From NCBI RefSeq assembly GCF_963677725.1, contig NZ_OY782507.1, positions 620,001-684,000 on the forward strand: 64,000 nt of DNA, written 5' to 3'. This document shows, piece after piece, positions 32,111-40,586 of this stretch (position 1 is the first letter of the stretch; the number at the start of each line of letters is the position of its first letter). The notes under the pieces were generated by a model. The model saw nothing but the letters and a program-made list of their open reading frames with translations. It did not search any database and had not been told where the DNA came from. A program made the translations under genes and the position numbers. Source of the stretch: an uncultured Cohaesibacter sp. (lineage in GTDB: Bacteria; Pseudomonadota; Alphaproteobacteria; Rhizobiales; Cohaesibacteraceae).

Positions 32111-34120
32111 TCATTTGCCGCAGAGCATGCGGGCGCGGGCAATGATCGCGTCAGCCGTAATGCCGAACTCCTCATAGAGGCGCTCTGCTGGAGCCGATGC
32201 CCCAAAGCTGTCCATGCCAATCACATTCTCTTCGCACGCCACATAACGGGTCCAGCCGAACTTGCTGGCGGCCTCTATGGCAATGCGCGGGGCATCGCCC
32301 AGAACTTCGTCACGATAGCTTTGCGGCTGAGCATCAAACAATTCCCAGCAAGGCATGGAGACAACTGCCACGCTGAGCCCATCTGCATGGAGTTTTTCAG
32401 CGGCCTCTACCGCCAGCATTAATTCCGTGCCGGTGCCGATCAGTGTGACGTCACGTCCCTCACCCAGTTGGCGCAAGACATACGCACCTTTGGCTGTGAG
32501 ATTTTCCTCGCCAGCTTCCAGACGCAGCTGTGGCACGCCCTGGCGCGACAGAGCCATCAAGGACGGAACCTTGCGTGAGCGGATGGCGATATCCCAGCAT
32601 TCAAGGGTTTCCATCGCGTCGCAAGGGCGGAAGACCTGAAGGTTTGGAATGACCCGCAAGCTTGCCATATGTTCGACAGGCTGGTGGGTTGGTCCATCTT
32701 CGCCCAGACCGATGCTGTCATGGGTCATGACATAAATCGTCCCGATGCCCATCAGCGCCGACAGACGAATGGCATTGCGCGCATAGTCACTGAAGACAAG
32801 GAAAGTGCCGCCGTAAGGAATGAATCCGCCATGCAAGGACATTCCATTCATGGCCGCTGACATGCCGAATTCACGCACGCCATAGCCGATATATCGGCCC
32901 GGCACTTCGCGGGTAAACTGGCTATCAACCGCTGGCACGCGGGTGAGGTTTGACCCTGTCAAATCCGCCGATCCGCCAACCATTTCGGGCAAGGATCCCG
33001 CCAGCGCATCAAGCGCCATTTGTGAAGCTTTACGGGTGGCCACTTTGGCCGGATTGGCAAAGAGCTCTGCGCGGGCAGACGCCAAGGCCGCCTCATAGGC
33101 TTTCGGCAGGTCGGCCGATTGACGGCGGGTGAACTCAGCTGCTTGCGGATGGGCCTTCAATGCCGCTTCCCAAGCCTTGCGCGCCGATTGACCTTTGGCG
33201 CCGATGGCGCGCCAGTCCTTGGCAAGATTGGATGGAATTTCAAATGGGTCTGCGGTCCAGCCAAGGGCCTGTTTGGCCGCGACCCCTTCTTCTGCTCCGA
33301 GTGGTGCACCATGGGCACCAGCGGTGCCAGCACGATTTGGCGAGCCAAAACCGATGACGGTTTTCATGGCGATCATCGAAGGCTTGTCCGTTGCGGCTTT
33401 AGCAGCTTTGAGGGCTGCATCAACAGCATTGGCGTCATGGCCATCGCAGGATTGCACATGCCAACCGCAGGCCTTGAAGCGACAGGGAATGTCCTCAGAG
33501 AAGGAAATTGAGGTTGGCCCGTCAATGGTGATGTCGTTGTCATCATACAGCACAATCAGCTTGCCAAGACCCAAATGGCCCGCAAGGCTTATGGCTTCCT
33601 GACCGATGCCTTCTTGCAGACAACCGTCGCCGAGCATGACATAGGTGTTATGATCGACCAGACCGGGGAATTCCTCGGCCAGCAAACGCTCGGACATTGC
33701 CATACCGACAGCCATGGCAATGCCCTGCCCCAGCGGACCCGTGGTGGTTTCAATGCCTTGAGCATGACCATATTCCGGGTGCCCTGCAGTCTTGGAACCC
33801 CATTGGCGGAAATTGCGGATTTCCTCGATGGTCATGTCTTCATAACCGGTCAGATGCAGCAGCGAATAGAGCATCATGGATGCATGGCCATTCGAGAGCA
33901 CAAAGCGATCCCGATCGGGCCAATCCGGTCGGGATGCGTCAAATTTCAAATGATTGCGGAACAATACGGTCGCCGCATCTGCCATGCCCATCGGTGCGCC
34001 GGGGTGGCCCGAATTGGCTTCATTGACGGCGTCAATCGAAAGGGCGCGAATGCAGTTGGCGAGAGCGAAAATCTCGGGAGCCAGTTTTTCTTTACTGGCA
34101 ATGAATGGGTCACTGATCAT
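32111..34120 (-). CDS. tkt: Transketolase
   Basis: This 669-residue thiamine-diphosphate enzyme moves two-carbon units between sugar phosphates and uses erythrose 4-phosphate as acceptor. The N-terminal half has [51 protein letters not shown] and [11 protein letters not shown] (thiamine-pyrophosphate binding). The middle domain has [30 protein letters not shown] and [20 protein letters not shown]-terminal domain follows. It heads the tkt-gph-tal direction of transcription. It diverges from rpiB across a region packed with TGTGAT/ATCACA half-sites, suggesting joint control with the sugar genes. Confidence 0.96.
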
Positions 34121-34467
34121 TACACTGTCCTCCTATGGCCCCTACCTACACCAAACATCACATAATCACAATCAATAATCACAAAATCTGGAATTTTTTG
34201 TGATTTTAATGCACAGAAACCCTCAAAATCACATTGAAATAACAAATTTCATGTTGTTTTTGTGATGTTTCAGCGTTAAAAGAGGAATAAGCTGGTCACC
34301 CTGAGGACATATCTGATGCCATCCTCCCAGAAAACCCATCGGAAAACACCCGCAGGGAGCAGCACCAAAGACCTGCCGGTCATCGATCGGTGCCATGTTC
34401 AGGTTCAGCATATTTGGACCGATTGATTTGGACCCTCAGGGTCAATGTCTCAGGGAAGGAAGCCATC
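34121..34467. other. Divergent intergenic region tkt / rpiB
   Basis: These 347 bases contain both promoters and the half-site cluster described separately. A purine-rich GGGAAGGAAG at 34452-34461 gives rpiB a strong ribosome site. No open frame here is credible. Confidence 0.7.
34157..34266. promoter_or_regulatory. Cluster of six ATCACA/TGTGAT half-sites
   Basis: ATCACA occurs at 34157-34162, 34165-34170, 34178-34183 and 34228-34233, and its complement TGTGAT at 34199-34204 and 34261-34266. The third and fourth form a perfect 10-bp inverted repeat, AATCACAAAA-N9-TTTTGTGATT (34177-34205). Such repeated half-sites upstream of divergent sugar genes are typical of DeoR-type or similar operators. 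The DeoR protein encoded nearby is one candidate binder; a CRP-like factor is less likely, because the spacing is not the CRP 6-base one. Confidence 0.7.
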
Positions 34468-34923
34468 ATGAAAATTGCAGTTGCAGGCGACAGCGCAGGC
34501 GAAGGCCTCGCAAAGATTGTAGCGGACCATCTCAAGGATACTTACGAGGTTTCCGAGATTTCGCGCACCGAAGACGGGCCGGACAGTTTTTACGCCAACC
34601 TGTCTGACCGGGTGGCCTCCCAGGTTATTGACGGCACCTATGATCGCGCCATTCTGATTTGCGGCACAGGTATTGGTGTCTGCATTGCGGCCAACAAGGT
34701 GCCGGGCATTCGCGCCGCCCTCACCCATGACACCTATTCGGCAGAACGCGCCGCCCTGTCCAACAATGCGCAGATCATCACAATGGGTGCACGCGTGGTG
34801 GGCACCGAAGTTGCCAAGACCATCGCTGACACCTTCCTGCGCGAAAGCTTTGATCCAGAAGGCCGTTCCGCTGGCAACGTTGCAGCAATCGACGCGGTCG
34901 ACGCAAAATATAATAAGGCTTGA
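34468..34923 (+). CDS. rpiB: RpiB-type sugar-phosphate isomerase (EryI-like)
   Basis: The 151-residue protein begins [20 protein letters not shown] and has [40 protein letters not shown] and [14 protein letters not shown], the RpiB/LacAB family pattern with the catalytic cysteine in GVCIAANK. The variant start (AGDSAGEG for the usual DHAGFELK) is that of the RpiB copy tied to erythritol loci (EryI), which forms D-erythrose 4-phosphate from a tetrulose phosphate. An upstream start (34390) is rejected because the ATG at 34468 has GGGAAGGAAG before it. It points toward tpiA convergently. Confidence 0.92.
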
Positions 34924-35188
34924 GGGCTTTTTGCTTGCTGACCACCACGAGATCAAAACGGGGCTCATCTCTCCCGTCTGGCAACAGACAGCCCCACCCT
35001 ATCTCTTGTGAGAATGCCGCTGGATTGAGCAGAGCCATAGCGGTTGCCCACTGGTCGGAGACGTGATTTCTATCACGCAGCAAAGGCTTCAAGTCAAAGG
35101 AACGCCGCATCAACCTAAGGGGGCTGATGCGGCGTTTTTTGTCGCCAAGCAGTTCACAAAGGCGCGGATCACCCGCGCCTTTCTTGCT

Positions 35189-35965
35189 TTATGTGTCGAG
35201 TTTGGCAGCGCACTTGGCCAGAATGTCGAGATAGCCTTCGACATTCCATGCGGAGCGGCCAATGAAAAGGCCGTCGATATTGGGGCAACTGATCAGCTCT
35301 TCGCAATTGCCCGGATTGACCGAGCCGCCATAAAGGCACAGAGGGCGATAACCCAACATTTCTTCGGCCACATCAAGGATTTCAGCCTGTCGCGCATCGG
35401 CATAGTCGGCGCTTGCCGGGATGCCATTCTCCCCGATTGCCCAGACCGGCTCATAGGCCAACAGGATCGTCGCCTTTTTCTGATCGCCACTGAGCTTGCC
35501 CAAAGCACCACGCACTTCCTCGGCCAGCACGTCAGCTGCCTTGCCGGCTTCCTTATCGGCCAGAGTTTCGCCAATACAGATGAGCGGGGTCAGACCATGA
35601 CGGACAGCGGCTTCAGCTTTCAAGCCTACGGTTTCATTGGTTTCGCCGAAAAACTCACGTCGCTCCGAATGCCCCAGCTCGACCAGATCGAGATTGCAGT
35701 CGGTCAGCATCAAGGGGGAGACTTCCCCCGTCCAGGCCCCGGCATCGTCCCAATGCATATTCTGCGCACCCACCTTGACCGAGCTATCGGCCAGCAAGGA
35801 CTTGACTTCACGCACAGCGGTGAAAGGCGGAATGACAAAGCGCTGGATACGGGGATCGCGGCTGACATCCGCCGCCTTCAGACCTTGAGCAAAGGTGACG
35901 GCTTCGGCCAGCGTTTTGTTCATTTTCCAACTTGTGCCGATCCAGAAACGGGGGGTGGTTGTCAT
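35189..35965 (-). CDS. tpiA2: Triose-phosphate isomerase paralogue TpiA2 (EryH-like)
   Basis: The 258-residue TIM-barrel protein has the triose-phosphate isomerase catalytic set: the lysine in IGTSWKMNKTLAEA, the histidine in VELGHSERREFFGE and the glutamate in LLAYEPVWAIGENG, plus the phosphate loop LYGGSVNPGN. The GTSWKMNK form, against GNWKMNG in housekeeping TpiA, is typical of the TpiA2/EryH copy of rhizobial and Brucella erythritol loci, which isomerises tetrulose phosphates. It begins three bases after the DeoR gene ends, so the two form an operon, as eryR-tpiB do in Sinorhizobium. Confidence 0.92.
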   Translation of the reverse strand: MTTTPRFWIGTSWKMNKTLAEAVTFAQGLKAADVSRDPRIQRFVIPPFTAVREVKSLLADSSVKVGAQNMHWDDAGAWTGEVSPLMLTDCNLDLVELGHSERREFFGETNETVGLKAEAAVRHGLTPLICIGETLADKEAGKAADVLAEEVRGALGKLSGDQKKATILLAYEPVWAIGENGIPASADYADARQAEILDVAEEMLGYRPLCLYGGSVNPGNCEELISCPNIDGLFIGRSAWNVEGYLDILAKCAAKLDT

Positions 35966-35968
35966 GGG

Positions 35969-36733
35969 TTAAGTCCTTGCAACAGTGAGTGTTAATCCCG
36001 CATTCTTCAGCTCTTCAGACACGTTGTTATCAGGTTCGTTGTCGGTGATGATCCAGTCAAAACTCTTGAGATCAGAGAGGACATGAAGGGCTGTTCGATT
36101 GAAGCGGGAATGGTTTACCAGCAGACATTTGCGGGTGGCAGCTTGCATCATTGCCTGCTTGGCCCGCACAATATTGTCATCCATATGAAATGCCTGCAGC
36201 CCCGAAACAGCCGGTGCAGAAATGAAAGCAACATCAGCCCGTAACCGCTGAAGGGTTTCTTCGGTCACAACACCACAATAGGCGTTGAATTTGGCTGAAT
36301 AGATTCCTCCCAGAACCAACAATGTGATGCCGACCTCGCCCAGCAAGGCGCTGATAATGGCCTGATTGTTGGTTATGACGGTGAGAGGTCGTTTTTGGCT
36401 GAGCATTGAGCCCAGAACCGCCGACATGGAGCCGTCATTGATCATTACGGTCATGCCCGGTTCGATCAATTTGAGCGCCTCTGCGGCCATACGTTTCTTG
36501 GCATCGGCATCCTGCCGGGCGCGAATGCGAAAATCGCTCTCGAACTGGTTGCCAGCGTCAGCTGTCGCCCCGCCACGGACCTTCCTTAAAACGCCGCCCT
36601 GTTCGAGCTCGTCCAGATCCCGGTGAATGGTCATTTTCGACACGCCGAATCTCTGGGCAAGGTCATCGATATCGACAGCCCTGTGCTCCACGAGGAGATC
36701 CATGATGAATTGTCTACGGTCTTCGCCTCTCAC
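35969..36733 (-). CDS. DeoR family transcriptional regulator (EryR-like)
   Basis: The 254-residue protein has the DeoR helix-turn-helix (VDIDDLAQRFGVSKMTIHRD then LDELEQGGVLRKVRGGA). The C-terminal sugar-phosphate sensor domain follows (MTVMINDGSMSAVLGSM, LTVITNNQAII, LLVLGGIYSAKFNAYCG). I choose the GTG whose first base is 36733, because GGAGGTG lies five bases upstream and the residues after it match family starts. An ATG 22 codons upstream overlaps the operator-like repeat and has no ribosome site. It should respond to a sugar phosphate and control tpiA2 and perhaps the neighbouring ery remnants, rpiB and tkt. Confidence 0.92.
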   Translation of the reverse strand: MRGEDRRQFIMDLLVEHRAVDIDDLAQRFGVSKMTIHRDLDELEQGGVLRKVRGGATADAGNQFESDFRIRARQDADAKKRMAAEALKLIEPGMTVMINDGSMSAVLGSMLSQKRPLTVITNNQAIISALLGEVGITLLVLGGIYSAKFNAYCGVVTEETLQRLRADVAFISAPAVSGLQAFHMDDNIVRAKQAMMQAATRKCLLVNHSRFNRTALHVLSDLKSFDWIITDNEPDNNVSEELKNAGLTLTVART

Positions 36734-36782
36734 GCGACACCTCCACGTCCGGCATTTCAGCGGACCCTTAATTTGTAACATG

Positions 36783-36825
36783 AAATATCTCAATTTCAAT
36801 TAATTTATGTTATTTTGAGATATTT
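36783..36825. promoter_or_regulatory. 11-bp inverted repeat upstream of the DeoR gene
   Basis: AAATATCTCAA (36783-36793) and TTGAGATATTT (36815-36825) are perfect inverted repeats 21 bases apart, about three helical turns centre to centre. They lie 50-90 bases before the GTG start. DeoR proteins bind spaced repeats of this kind, so this is a candidate autoregulatory operator. Its half-site differs from the ATCACA cluster at tkt/rpiB. Confidence 0.75.
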
Positions 36826-37198: not shown

Positions 37199-38206
37199 TC
37201 ACCCGGTGCTTTCTGCCAACTCACTAATGACATTATGGATCTCGGATTGAATTTGGATTTCGCTCCAGCCAAGTTCACCCCCGCAAATCTGGGCGATATA
37301 TTCAAGCGCAGAGCTGGTTAGCGCACCATTGACCCCGATCAGGGTTCGGCGTACCAGAATGTTCATCACATGCTGAACGGCTTCGTTGCGGACTATCCAA
37401 CTGATTTCAACATCGGAATGGCCATCCGTCCCCTCGATCAGCCGATAGCCTGCTGACTCGTCGGCGAGGATCAGGCTGGCGGTCGTGCCGTAGCGCTCCA
37501 GCAATTGCGCAACCCGTGCTTCGCTGACCTTGTGCAAAGCCACCAAGCGTTTCAACCATACGGCCTTCTCCGCGTCTGTCTGCGGATAGATAGCCCCGCC
37601 GCCGATTGGCACCGAGCGGGTCGACAGTCTTCTCTCATGTTGCAGTTCGCCAAGGAGCTGATCACAGACTTCTTCGGCAAATCCTCGGAAGGTCGTCCAT
37701 TTGCCACCAACGAGGGATATCACCGGATATGGTCGTTGTTCATCTGGTGCCTGCCGTGGGGTGGAGTGATCACGGCTTACCAAACCAGCGGCCGTGTTGT
37801 CTGCGGCTGGCAAAGGCCGGATGCCGGAATAGCAATAGACAATCTGGCTGCGATGAATCTTCAGGTCGGGTAGCAAACCTGCAAGGCTTTCAAGGAAATA
37901 ATCGATCTCCTCGTCTTCGCAGCGTACTTTATCGGGATCATCGGCGAAAATGTCGGTTGAACCGACCAAGGCGCGGCCGTGATAATCAAACACCAGACAG
38001 ACACGGCCATCATCGGCTTCGTAATAGACCATCAGGCCCTTGAGCGCCGCCACCAGATCGGGACTATCAATGATGATGTGCGAGCCCTTGGTGCCGCCGA
38101 TCAGCTTGGTTTGAAGCCCCAGAAGCCCGTTAACCCGATCAATCCATGGCCCTGCGGCATTGACGACGATTTTGGGCCTATAGTCCGCCTTAGTTCCATT
38201 CCCCAT
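37199..38206 (-). pseudogene. eryB: 5'-truncated GlpD-like dehydrogenase (EryB remnant)
   Basis: The open frame encodes about 330 residues matching the C-terminal two thirds of GlpD-type FAD dehydrogenases: PKIVVNAAGPWIDRVNGLLG, LVGSTDIFADDPDKVRCEDE, YCYSGIRPLP, ISLVGGKWTTFRGFAEEV and the helical C-terminal domain. About 170 N-terminal residues are missing, including the FAD-binding GxGxxG, so it cannot be functional. The sequence joins directly to an interior point of a sugar-kinase gene near 38190. The kinase-then-dehydrogenase order and the DeoR/TpiA2/RpiB neighbours identify it as eryB, which oxidises erythritol 4-phosphate. The natural C terminus appears intact. Confidence 0.82.
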
Positions 38207-39145
38207 GCTGCCGGTTCCTCGACATCTAAGACAGAGACCGGCATGCGGAGGACATCGGCAAAGAGCTAGGCATAGACCGGGCTGCGCGATATCCCTCCGG
38301 TCAGGCGGGCAATGGCAGGGGCAAATCCGTCACGCAAGGCATCGCAGTGAAGCCGATGATTGAAGGCTATGCCTTCCATCAGGGCACGCAACACGTCCCC
38401 ACGCTGGTGCCAGCCATGCAGCCCCAGAAAGCCGCCGGAACTACCCGGCCCATAGCGAGAGTCAAACAGGTAGGGATGGAAAAGTATGACATTGTTTGCC
38501 GCGCGCGCAGCCTCCAACTCCCCAGCAATCACCGCATGGAAAGCATCCCCGTAATGCTCTTTTTCCTGTTGGCGAAAATTGTCCAGAAACCAGTCATAAT
38601 TGGCCGCAGAAGCGGGCGATATAACCATATTGCCACTCCCCTCGCCTCAACCCATTGCGGCAGAGCCAGCGTGGATCGATCTTGGGCTGTCTGGATACGG
38701 TCTCGTTGATGGAATAAGTACCGGCAACGATTGCCACCGTCCCTTCGCCATAGCCGCCGGAGCCAAGGGCGGACGCGGTGACATCATACAAGCCAGCCAC
38801 GACGGGCGTTCCCTCGGCAAGGCCAGTCAAGGATGTGGCTTGGGCCGTTACATGACCAATGATCTGGTCGGGAAGTGCGATTTTAGGCAGTGCATCAGAC
38901 TGGCTTTCCAGCCCGTAAAGACCAAGGATATCCAGGTCATAATCCTGACTTGAGGGATTGGTGAAAGAGATGCTGGCTTCGGTTAGATCGGTCCCAACCG
39001 TGCCGGTGAGGAAAAAGCGCAGTCAATCTCTACAGGCAATCACGCTGCCGATCTGCGCAAAGCGCTCGGGCTGGTGCTTGCGGATCTAGGCGAGTAGCAC
39101 CGCAGAGGCCGACAAATGCGGACATTGCCCGGTCATTGCCAAAGA
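38190..39145 (-). pseudogene. eryA: Decayed FGGY-family sugar kinase (EryA remnant)
   Basis: Reading the minus strand and passing over lesions gives FGGY kinase sequence: PHLSASAVLLA, IRKHQPERFAQIGSVIACRD, LRFFLTGTVGTDLTEASISF, GTPVVAGLYDVTASALGSGG, VAIVAGTYSINETV, VISPASAANYDWFLDNF, FLGLHGWHQRGDVLRALMEG, LTGGISRSPVYA and LFADVLRMPVSVLDVEEPAA. Lesions: TAG at 39086-39088 and TGA at 39023-39025 (both where Trp is expected), a frameshift near 38632-38636 consistent with loss of two bases, TAG at 38266-38268 (expected Gln), a missing N terminus of about 100 residues, and a lost C terminus at the eryB fusion. It would have phosphorylated erythritol. Confidence 0.82.
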
Positions 39146-39146
39146 T

Positions 39147-39173
39147 AAAAAGCCACCGCTCAACGGTGGCTTT
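39147..39173 (-). terminator. Intrinsic terminator after fumC
   Basis: On the minus strand AAAGCCACCG pairs with CGGTGGCTTT around a five-base loop, followed by TTTTTAT. It sits 20 bases past the fumC stop and directly against the truncated eryA remnant. Confidence 0.88.
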
Positions 39174-39194: not shown

Positions 39195-40586
39195 TTATTG
39201 CGGGGCAATCATTCTTTCTGGCCGCACAAGTTTGTCGTAATCCTCTTCCTTGACAAATCCGAGCTTCACGGCCTCTTCCTTGAGGGTCGTGCCATTTTTG
39301 TGCGCAGTCTTGGCAATGGTGGTGGCATTGTCATAGCCAATATGCGGGGCCAGAGCGGTGACCAGCATGAGCGACCGGCCCATCAGATCTGCAATCTGTT
39401 CTTCATTGGCCTTGATGCCAACGACGCATTTATCAGTGAAGCTTCTGCTGGCATCGCTCAACAGGCGAATGGATTGCAGGACATTGAAAATGATGACGGG
39501 TTTGAAGACATTCAGCTCGAAATGCCCTTGTGAGCCAGCAATCGACACAGTGGTGTTGTTGCCCATAACTTGCGTGCAAACCATGGTCATGGCTTCACAC
39601 TGGGTCGGATTGACTTTACCGGGCATGATTGATGATCCGGGTTCGTTTTCAGGCAGGGAAATTTCACCCAAACCAGAGCGCGGGCCAGAACCGAGCAGAC
39701 GAATGTCGCTGGCGATCTTGAACAGGCTCACCGCAACATTGTTCAGCGCTCCATGTGCCTCGACCATGGCATCATGGGTGGCAAGGGCTTCGAACTTGTT
39801 TGGCGCCGTTGCGAATGGCAAATCGGTATAGTCGGCCACTTCTTCAGCAAATTTCTCGGCGAACCCGATTTTGGCATTGATGCCGGTGCCGACAGCTGTG
39901 CCGCCTTGCGCCAGATCATACAAAGCAGGCAACGTGTCACGCACCCGCCGAATGCTGTTGCGGACCATGGCGACATAGCCGGAAAATTCCTGTCCAAGTG
40001 TCAACGGGGTCGCATCCTGCAAGTGGGTACGGCCAATCTTGATGATGTCCTTGAAGGCTTCCGATTTCTCTTCCAGAGCAATAGCCAGATCATCCAGAGC
40101 CGGAATCAGGCTTTTGTTGATCTCTTCAGCCGTGGCGATGTGCATTGCGGTGGGGAATGTGTCGTTGGAAGACTGGCTGCGATTGCAATGGTCGTTTGGA
40201 TGAACAGGATCCTTTGACCCCAGAATGCCGCCTAGCAGCTCAATCGCGCGATTGGAAATCACTTCATTGGCATTCATGTTGGATTGAGTGCCTGAACCGG
40301 TTTGCCAGACCGACAAGGGAAAGTGTGCATTCAGTTTGCCTTGTGCCACTTCGCTCGATGCCGTCACGATGGCGTCCCCAATGGTGGGGTCGATATTCTC
40401 AAGCGCCAGATTGGCCCGGGCGGCGGAGCGCTTGATGATGCCCAGCGCGCGAACAAGCGGCGCGGCCATCTTCTCCTCACCGATTGGAAAATTGATTAGG
40501 GACCGAGCGGTTTGGGCTCCGTAATATTTGTCTGCAGGAACCTCAAGTGGACCAAAAGAATCGGTCTCCACACGCACATTGCTCAT
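39195..40586 (-). CDS. fumC: Fumarate hydratase class II
   Basis: FumC is the iron-free, oxygen-stable fumarase of the citric acid cycle, converting fumarate to malate. The 463-residue protein has [58 protein letters not shown], the helix [20 protein letters not shown] and the superfamily signature [16 protein letters not shown]. It is complete. It lies close to a gene for the unrelated iron-sulfur class I fumarase, giving the cell both types. Confidence 0.97.

Follow-up and report, generated by a model that had tools for sequence, protein, structure and literature searches.

A decayed kinase-dehydrogenase pair marks the probable scar of an EryEFG-type erythritol locus in a Cohaesibacter genome

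Erythritol loci with an EryEFG-type transporter, such as that of plasmid pRL12 of Rhizobium johnstonii 3841, are the described systems closest to the region reported here. Geddes et al. 2013 treat EryABCD, EryEFG, EryR, TpiB and RpiB, and the portion of their text available to us, figures aside, names no second kinase or GlpD-like gene (PMC3599248); another report, likewise available in part, lists ten ery genes from which the kin2-GlpD2 pair discussed below is absent (PMC10190533). The accessible parts of two mutant studies on R. leguminosarum 3841 describe impaired growth on mannitol of pRL12 tpiA and rpiB mutants (PMC5118466) and impairment in rhizospheres of eryB, eryR, tpiA2 and rpiB2 mutants (PMC11103875). 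Loss of such genes has a precedent in Brucella ovis, where, according to the part of the paper available, eryA, eryD, eryF and eryG are pseudogenes in place and the third cluster is intact (PMC2677664).

The window analysed here is a stretch of 64,000 nucleotides from an uncultured Cohaesibacter sp. On its minus strand, from 39142 to 37199, decayed FGGY kinase sequence passes into GlpD-like sequence. The features of the region, compared with G008, a genome of the same genus, and with pRL12, are the following.

39195..40586, minus strand: fumC (class II fumarase), intact, 463 codons without a stop; 82% DNA identity to and collinear with G008; left border.
39142..39147, minus strand: scar 1, where 10,865 bp of G008 are absent.
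38639..39142, minus strand: kin2 remnant piece A, 78% to residues 137-304 of G008 kin2, with stops at 39086-39088 and 39023-39025.
38631..38639, minus strand: frame change, net 2 bases fewer than in G008.
38201..38631, minus strand: kin2 remnant piece B, 77% to residues 308-450 of G008 kin2, with a stop at 38266-38268.
38199..38201, minus strand: scar 2, the joint between kinase and GlpD-like sequence, where 1,650 bp of G008 are absent.
37199..38206, minus strand: GlpD2 remnant, C-terminal, 335 codons open, 77% to residues 219-548 of G008 GlpD2.
35969..36799, minus strand: eryR (DeoR family), intact, 95% to G008 and 70% to pRL12 eryR, dN/dS 0.046; first codon uncertain within the listed frame.
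35189..35965, minus strand: tpiA2 (eryH type), intact, 82% to pRL12 tpiA, dN/dS 0.043.
34465..34923, plus strand: rpiB (eryI type), intact, facing tpiA2, 79% to pRL12, dN/dS 0.065.
32111..34120, minus strand: transketolase, intact, above the TIGR00232 cut-off and collinear with G008; right border.

The three in-frame stops of the kinase pieces are TAG (39086-39088), TGA (39023-39025) and TAG (38266-38268). A preliminary description of this DNA had reported all three on the minus strand and had taken the first two for Trp-to-stop changes; intact G008 reads TGG, TGG and CAA at these sites, so both Trp-to-stop changes hold and the third is a Gln-to-stop change. The frameshift it had placed near 38634 was recovered as the frame change between 38639 and 38631, and the abrupt passage from kinase to GlpD-like sequence placed near 38190 is real and enters another frame, with the joint about ten bases away: by blastn against G008, the last aligned kinase base is 38201 and the GlpD-like alignment begins at 38199. 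The GlpD2 piece is without the front 218 residues of G008 GlpD2, which presumably include the FAD-binding region. A terminator-like hairpin is visible by eye at scar 1, the scar lying behind it. The remnant shares 74% DNA identity with the intact G008 locus over 946 and 1,037 aligned bases, which places it beyond chance resemblance. With stops, a frame change and truncation relative to an intact relative, the pieces are, as judged from their sequence, pseudogene remnants that presumably yield no working product. The kinase half holds all four of the small lesions, a distribution not far from chance (about 0.05 by simple proportion). Lesions and joints alike are known here from the assembled contig sequence alone, so that sequencing or assembly error might account for stops, frame change and joints together; we consider this very unlikely, since six independent lesions stand inside 2 kb while the eight neighbour genes compared are all open and without stop codons, and the source genome (G000) is a single contig of 4,625,566 bases, 99.56% complete with 0.52% contamination.

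When 61 genomes, the window's own included, were searched with the two pieces, the best match outside the own genome was G008 (77% and 78%), followed by a Bauldia genome, G034 (56% and 58%). For the GlpD piece, identity is highest to G008 GlpD2 (77%), followed by GlpD2 of Bauldia, Paracoccus and R. johnstonii (53-57%), whereas four EryB proteins share 26-29% with it and the organism's own GlpD 28%. For the kinase, identity to G008 kin2 is 78% in piece A and 77% in piece B, and three other kin2 proteins give 57-68%; four EryA proteins give 29-35%, and the organism's own EryA-like kinase 33% (A) and 27% (B). In the trees, each piece groups with its G008 partner (support 100/100, 100/99 and 100/97) inside a five-row kin2 or GlpD2 group (98/97, 97/100 and 99/99); the kinase trees were flagged for two long rows, GlpK and another own kinase, both lying outside the kin2 groups.

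The preliminary description had named the pieces eryA and eryB, fused by one deletion. The neighbouring eryR-tpiA2-rpiB genes suit an erythritol locus, and eryA does adjoin eryB in known loci, yet the pieces are far closer to kin2 and GlpD2 than to the EryA and EryB proteins of the four genomes aligned, the trees set them apart from both, and eryB and eryA of G008 stand elsewhere in the locus on the other strand. We therefore reject the eryA/eryB identity, which we regard as exceedingly improbable. The resemblance that invited it is genuine, for kin2-GlpD2, like EryA-EryB, consists of an FGGY kinase followed by an FAD enzyme of the glycerol-3-phosphate dehydrogenase type; the two pairs differ in forming separate tree groups, and kin2 and EryA of G008 share only 26% identity over their alignment. 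The NCBIfam label of the GlpD piece, glycerol-3-phosphate dehydrogenase, a match that falls under the cut-off of the family, would fit a decayed glycerol pair (GlpK-GlpD). This reading was rejected as well and appears virtually impossible to us, because the own GlpD is intact at C1:557788 and only 28% identical to the piece, the own GlpK gives no match to piece A at E 10 and to piece B one of 29 residues with E 0.57, and the trees disagree. A kinase-dehydrogenase pair other than eryA-eryB thus gave the best matches, the result by which the preliminary description had said its reading would fall, and it was kin2-GlpD2, which adjoins the ery locus in relatives, rather than GlpK-GlpD. The decayed pair is, on identities and trees, best read as kin2 and GlpD2, accessory to the ery locus.

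The intact counterpart in G008 runs fumC, eryDCBA, EryEFG-type transporter, kin2, DeoR2, GlpD2, eryR, tpiA2, rpiB, tkt. The genes eryD, eryC, eryB and eryA lie on the opposite strand, the first gene of the ABC transporter is DUF2291-like, and kin2 and GlpD2 are 528 aa (as listed) and 565 aa long. By blastn, the window, taken in reverse strand, is collinear with G008 except for two gaps. The first, of 10,865 bp, starts behind fumC and comprises eryDCBA, the EryEFG-type transporter and the front of kin2, with borders at window 39147 (L049:4814 in G008) and window 39142 (L049:15680). The second, of 1,650 bp, comprises the end of kin2, DeoR2 and the front of GlpD2, with borders at window 38201 (L049:16623) and window 38199 (L049:18274). 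DNA identity beside the scars is 82%, both on the fumC side and on the eryR-to-fsa side, versus 74% for the two pieces. The G+C content of the block in G008, 0.557 versus 0.540 and 0.551 in the flanks, says nothing either way on a foreign origin.

Collinear DNA interrupted by two gaps argues that an erythritol locus was lost in the lineage of the window, and the protein-by-protein match of the G008 locus with the pRL12 erythritol locus supports the same reading: the region is very probably the scar of a lost EryEFG-type locus. The common ancestor with G008 would have carried the whole locus, which the window lineage would then have deleted, an ordinary kind of event. The remnant was thus joined by deletion as first proposed, although two deletions are seen relative to G008, and eryDCBA and the transporter are missing outright. 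Similarly, ancestral use of erythritol with loss of its first two steps holds as far as loss of the locus goes; eryA and eryB, however, are gone outright, and the decayed genes are the accessory pair. Deprived of the uptake, kinase, dehydrogenase and EryC steps, the organism would not use erythritol by the ery route. The intact regulator, tpiA2 and rpiB were correctly placed beside the remnant in the preliminary description, and would have been retained through another task in the genus.

Of the parts of an EryEFG-type locus, the window keeps the eryR-tpiA2-rpiB cluster; eryABCD is absent between fumC and the remnant, and the transporter is absent from the window, with short DNA matches alone elsewhere in the genome among the matches listed. 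The own genome was searched with EryA, EryB and EryC as proteins and with the G008 block as DNA. EryB matched the remnant, the intact GlpD (C1:557788) and, weakly, one short stretch, none of them a true EryB; EryC gave a single match of 25%; and the best of the block matches listed lies within glpD, 337 bases long and 71% identical. On the matches listed and at the sensitivity used, we accordingly rejected an intact ery block at another place in the own genome, and the intact locus that had been suggested as a check was found in G008. Among the 18 genomes of the genus, true EryB occurs only in G008, the next best match reaching at most 51%. An intact kinase 46% identical to G008 EryA lies at C1:3390691-3392220 (L077:5691-7217); the trees place it as sister to the four EryA proteins, and EryB and EryC gave no match within the 17 kb around it. 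An erythritol route may run through this kinase. Elsewhere in the genus, G003 (L052:7212-15986) and G009 (L053:7497-13898) carry a kinase and a GlpD-like enzyme that are more distant, 37-42% identical to kin2 and GlpD2, and that have a SorC-type regulator and ABC genes of their own; this may be another polyol locus.

Between the window and G008, the NG86 estimate of dN/dS is 0.103 for the GlpD piece; the kinase pieces give 0.108 and 0.120, whereas eight intact neighbours range from 0.021 to 0.070. These values are rough because dS is high: it runs from 1.25 to 1.61 in the pieces and from 0.56 to 1.25 in the neighbours. At columns where three outgroups agree, stops excluded, the window departs at 30 of 166 sites in GlpD2, 17 of 96 in piece A and 17 of 84 in piece B, and G008 at 28, 9 and 16 of the same sites, respectively. 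Together, dN/dS and outgroup-site counts suggest that most divergence of the pieces arose under constraint and that the loss came late relative to the split from G008, no years being derivable. The recent loss first proposed is upheld in this relative sense, the split being that from the nearest relative compared, with dN/dS of 0.10-0.12. The open 335-codon GlpD2 piece might alternatively still be made and kept for some use: it has neither stop nor frame change, its dN/dS is 0.103, and it departs at outgroup-invariant sites much as the intact GlpD2 of G008 does (30 vs 28). Late decay, however, predicts equal numbers for this piece, the plainly broken kinase pieces have dN/dS values of the same order, and the front of the protein is missing. 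We consider continued use of the piece very unlikely, and late decay of the whole pair remains our reading.

Retention of eryR, tpiA2 and rpiB need not reflect former erythritol use. Whereas true EryB occurs in one of the 18 genus genomes, 12 carry a second full TIM-type gene and a thirteenth has it in pieces; EryR at 82% or more occurs in 8 of the 18 and RpiB above the NCBIfam cut-off for D-erythrulose-4-phosphate isomerase in 6 of the 18, the own genome counted in both (the window RpiB scores 254.6 bits, cut-off 240). Occurring as they do without EryB, these genes probably serve another task in the genus, and the cluster is separable from erythritol use. The facing orientation of rpiB and tpiA2 (window 34465-35965) recurs in G008, G006 and G015. 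In G016, near the end of contig C8 (L064:454-2668), rpiB, tpiA2 and eryR match in several frames, which reflects either decay in a second lineage or poor contig-end sequence.

In rhizobia and related bacteria, the kin2-GlpD2 pair is associated with erythritol loci. When 249 genomes drawn evenly from the order were searched (limits E <=1e-165 for EryA and E <=1e-150 for GlpD2), EryA was found in 19 genomes and GlpD2 in 15, one being the window's own remnant. EryA accompanies GlpD2 in 13 of the 14 genomes with intact GlpD2, a single GlpD2 genome being without it; conversely, six genomes with EryA lack GlpD2 at the limits used. The two genes lie 3.5-9.2 kb apart, hence less than 10 kb, in 12 of the 13 genomes having both (12 of the 14 with intact GlpD2) and on different contigs in the other. 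The Fisher p for co-occurrence, 2e-16, overstates independence because the genomes are related. Of 579 confirmed loci, the best 80 were examined, a sample chosen by likeness with flanks limited to 10 kb: kin2 stands beside GlpD2 in every one, accompanied by an EryEFG-type transporter in 75 loci and by EryA in 68. Among 72,556 plasmid records, EryA occurs in 138 and GlpD2 in 111.

On pRL12 of R. johnstonii 3841 (L164:12501-16698), as in relatives, DeoR, kin2 and GlpD2 genes stand behind the EryEFG-type transporter genes, and on pRL12 kin2 and GlpD2 are flanked by the DeoR gene and fba; GlpD2, kin2 and DeoR of pRL12 should be pRL120197-pRL120199, a numbering inferred from gene order and tags. 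That EryEFG-type loci carry a second catabolic branch of DeoR, kin2 and the long GlpD2, handling another tetritol or pentitol taken up through EryEFG, is a reading about evenly balanced for and against. In such a branch, kin2 would phosphorylate and GlpD2 then oxidise a second polyol imported by the same transporter; gene order and protein family point, more weakly than for the loss itself, to another polyol as substrate. Compared with PDB sequences, G008 kin2 matches AI-2 kinase, xylulose kinase and glycerol kinases, and G008 GlpD2 matches glycerol-3-phosphate dehydrogenase/oxidase, neither giving a substrate hint. In the portions of the literature available, the pRL12019x tags appear just for the fba gene pRL120196 (the pair may stand in Yost et al. 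2006), and threitol with Rhizobium and erythritol leads to a yeast review alone; neither a name nor a substrate is assigned to the pair in these sources. In the window, kin2-GlpD2 and eryABCD were lost together. Beyond the corrected gene names and an erythritol locus lost in one species and kept in its relative, this pair lacking a name is the most useful by-product of the analysis.

Set against the pRL12 erythritol locus, the window shares intact eryR (70%), tpiA2 (82%) and rpiB (79%), and its lost part, as seen in G008, has the same eryDCBA, DUF2291-like gene, ABC transporter, kin2, DeoR and GlpD2; all 14 proteins compared (11 from G008 plus window EryR, TpiA2 and RpiB) match the pRL12 locus, from 42% (DeoR2) to 82%. 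It differs in having neither eryDCBA nor the transporter, in its broken kin2 and GlpD2, and in rpiB facing tpiA2, whereas pRL12 eryR, tpiA and rpiB share one direction; moreover, DeoR2 lies between kin2 and GlpD2 in G008 and the DeoR gene before kin2 in pRL12. As far as the available part of the Brucella ovis paper goes, both genomes have lost erythritol genes and kept the third cluster (regulator, tpiA and rpiB type) intact, but the window locus is mostly deleted and its readable remnant is kin2-GlpD2 (PMC2677664).
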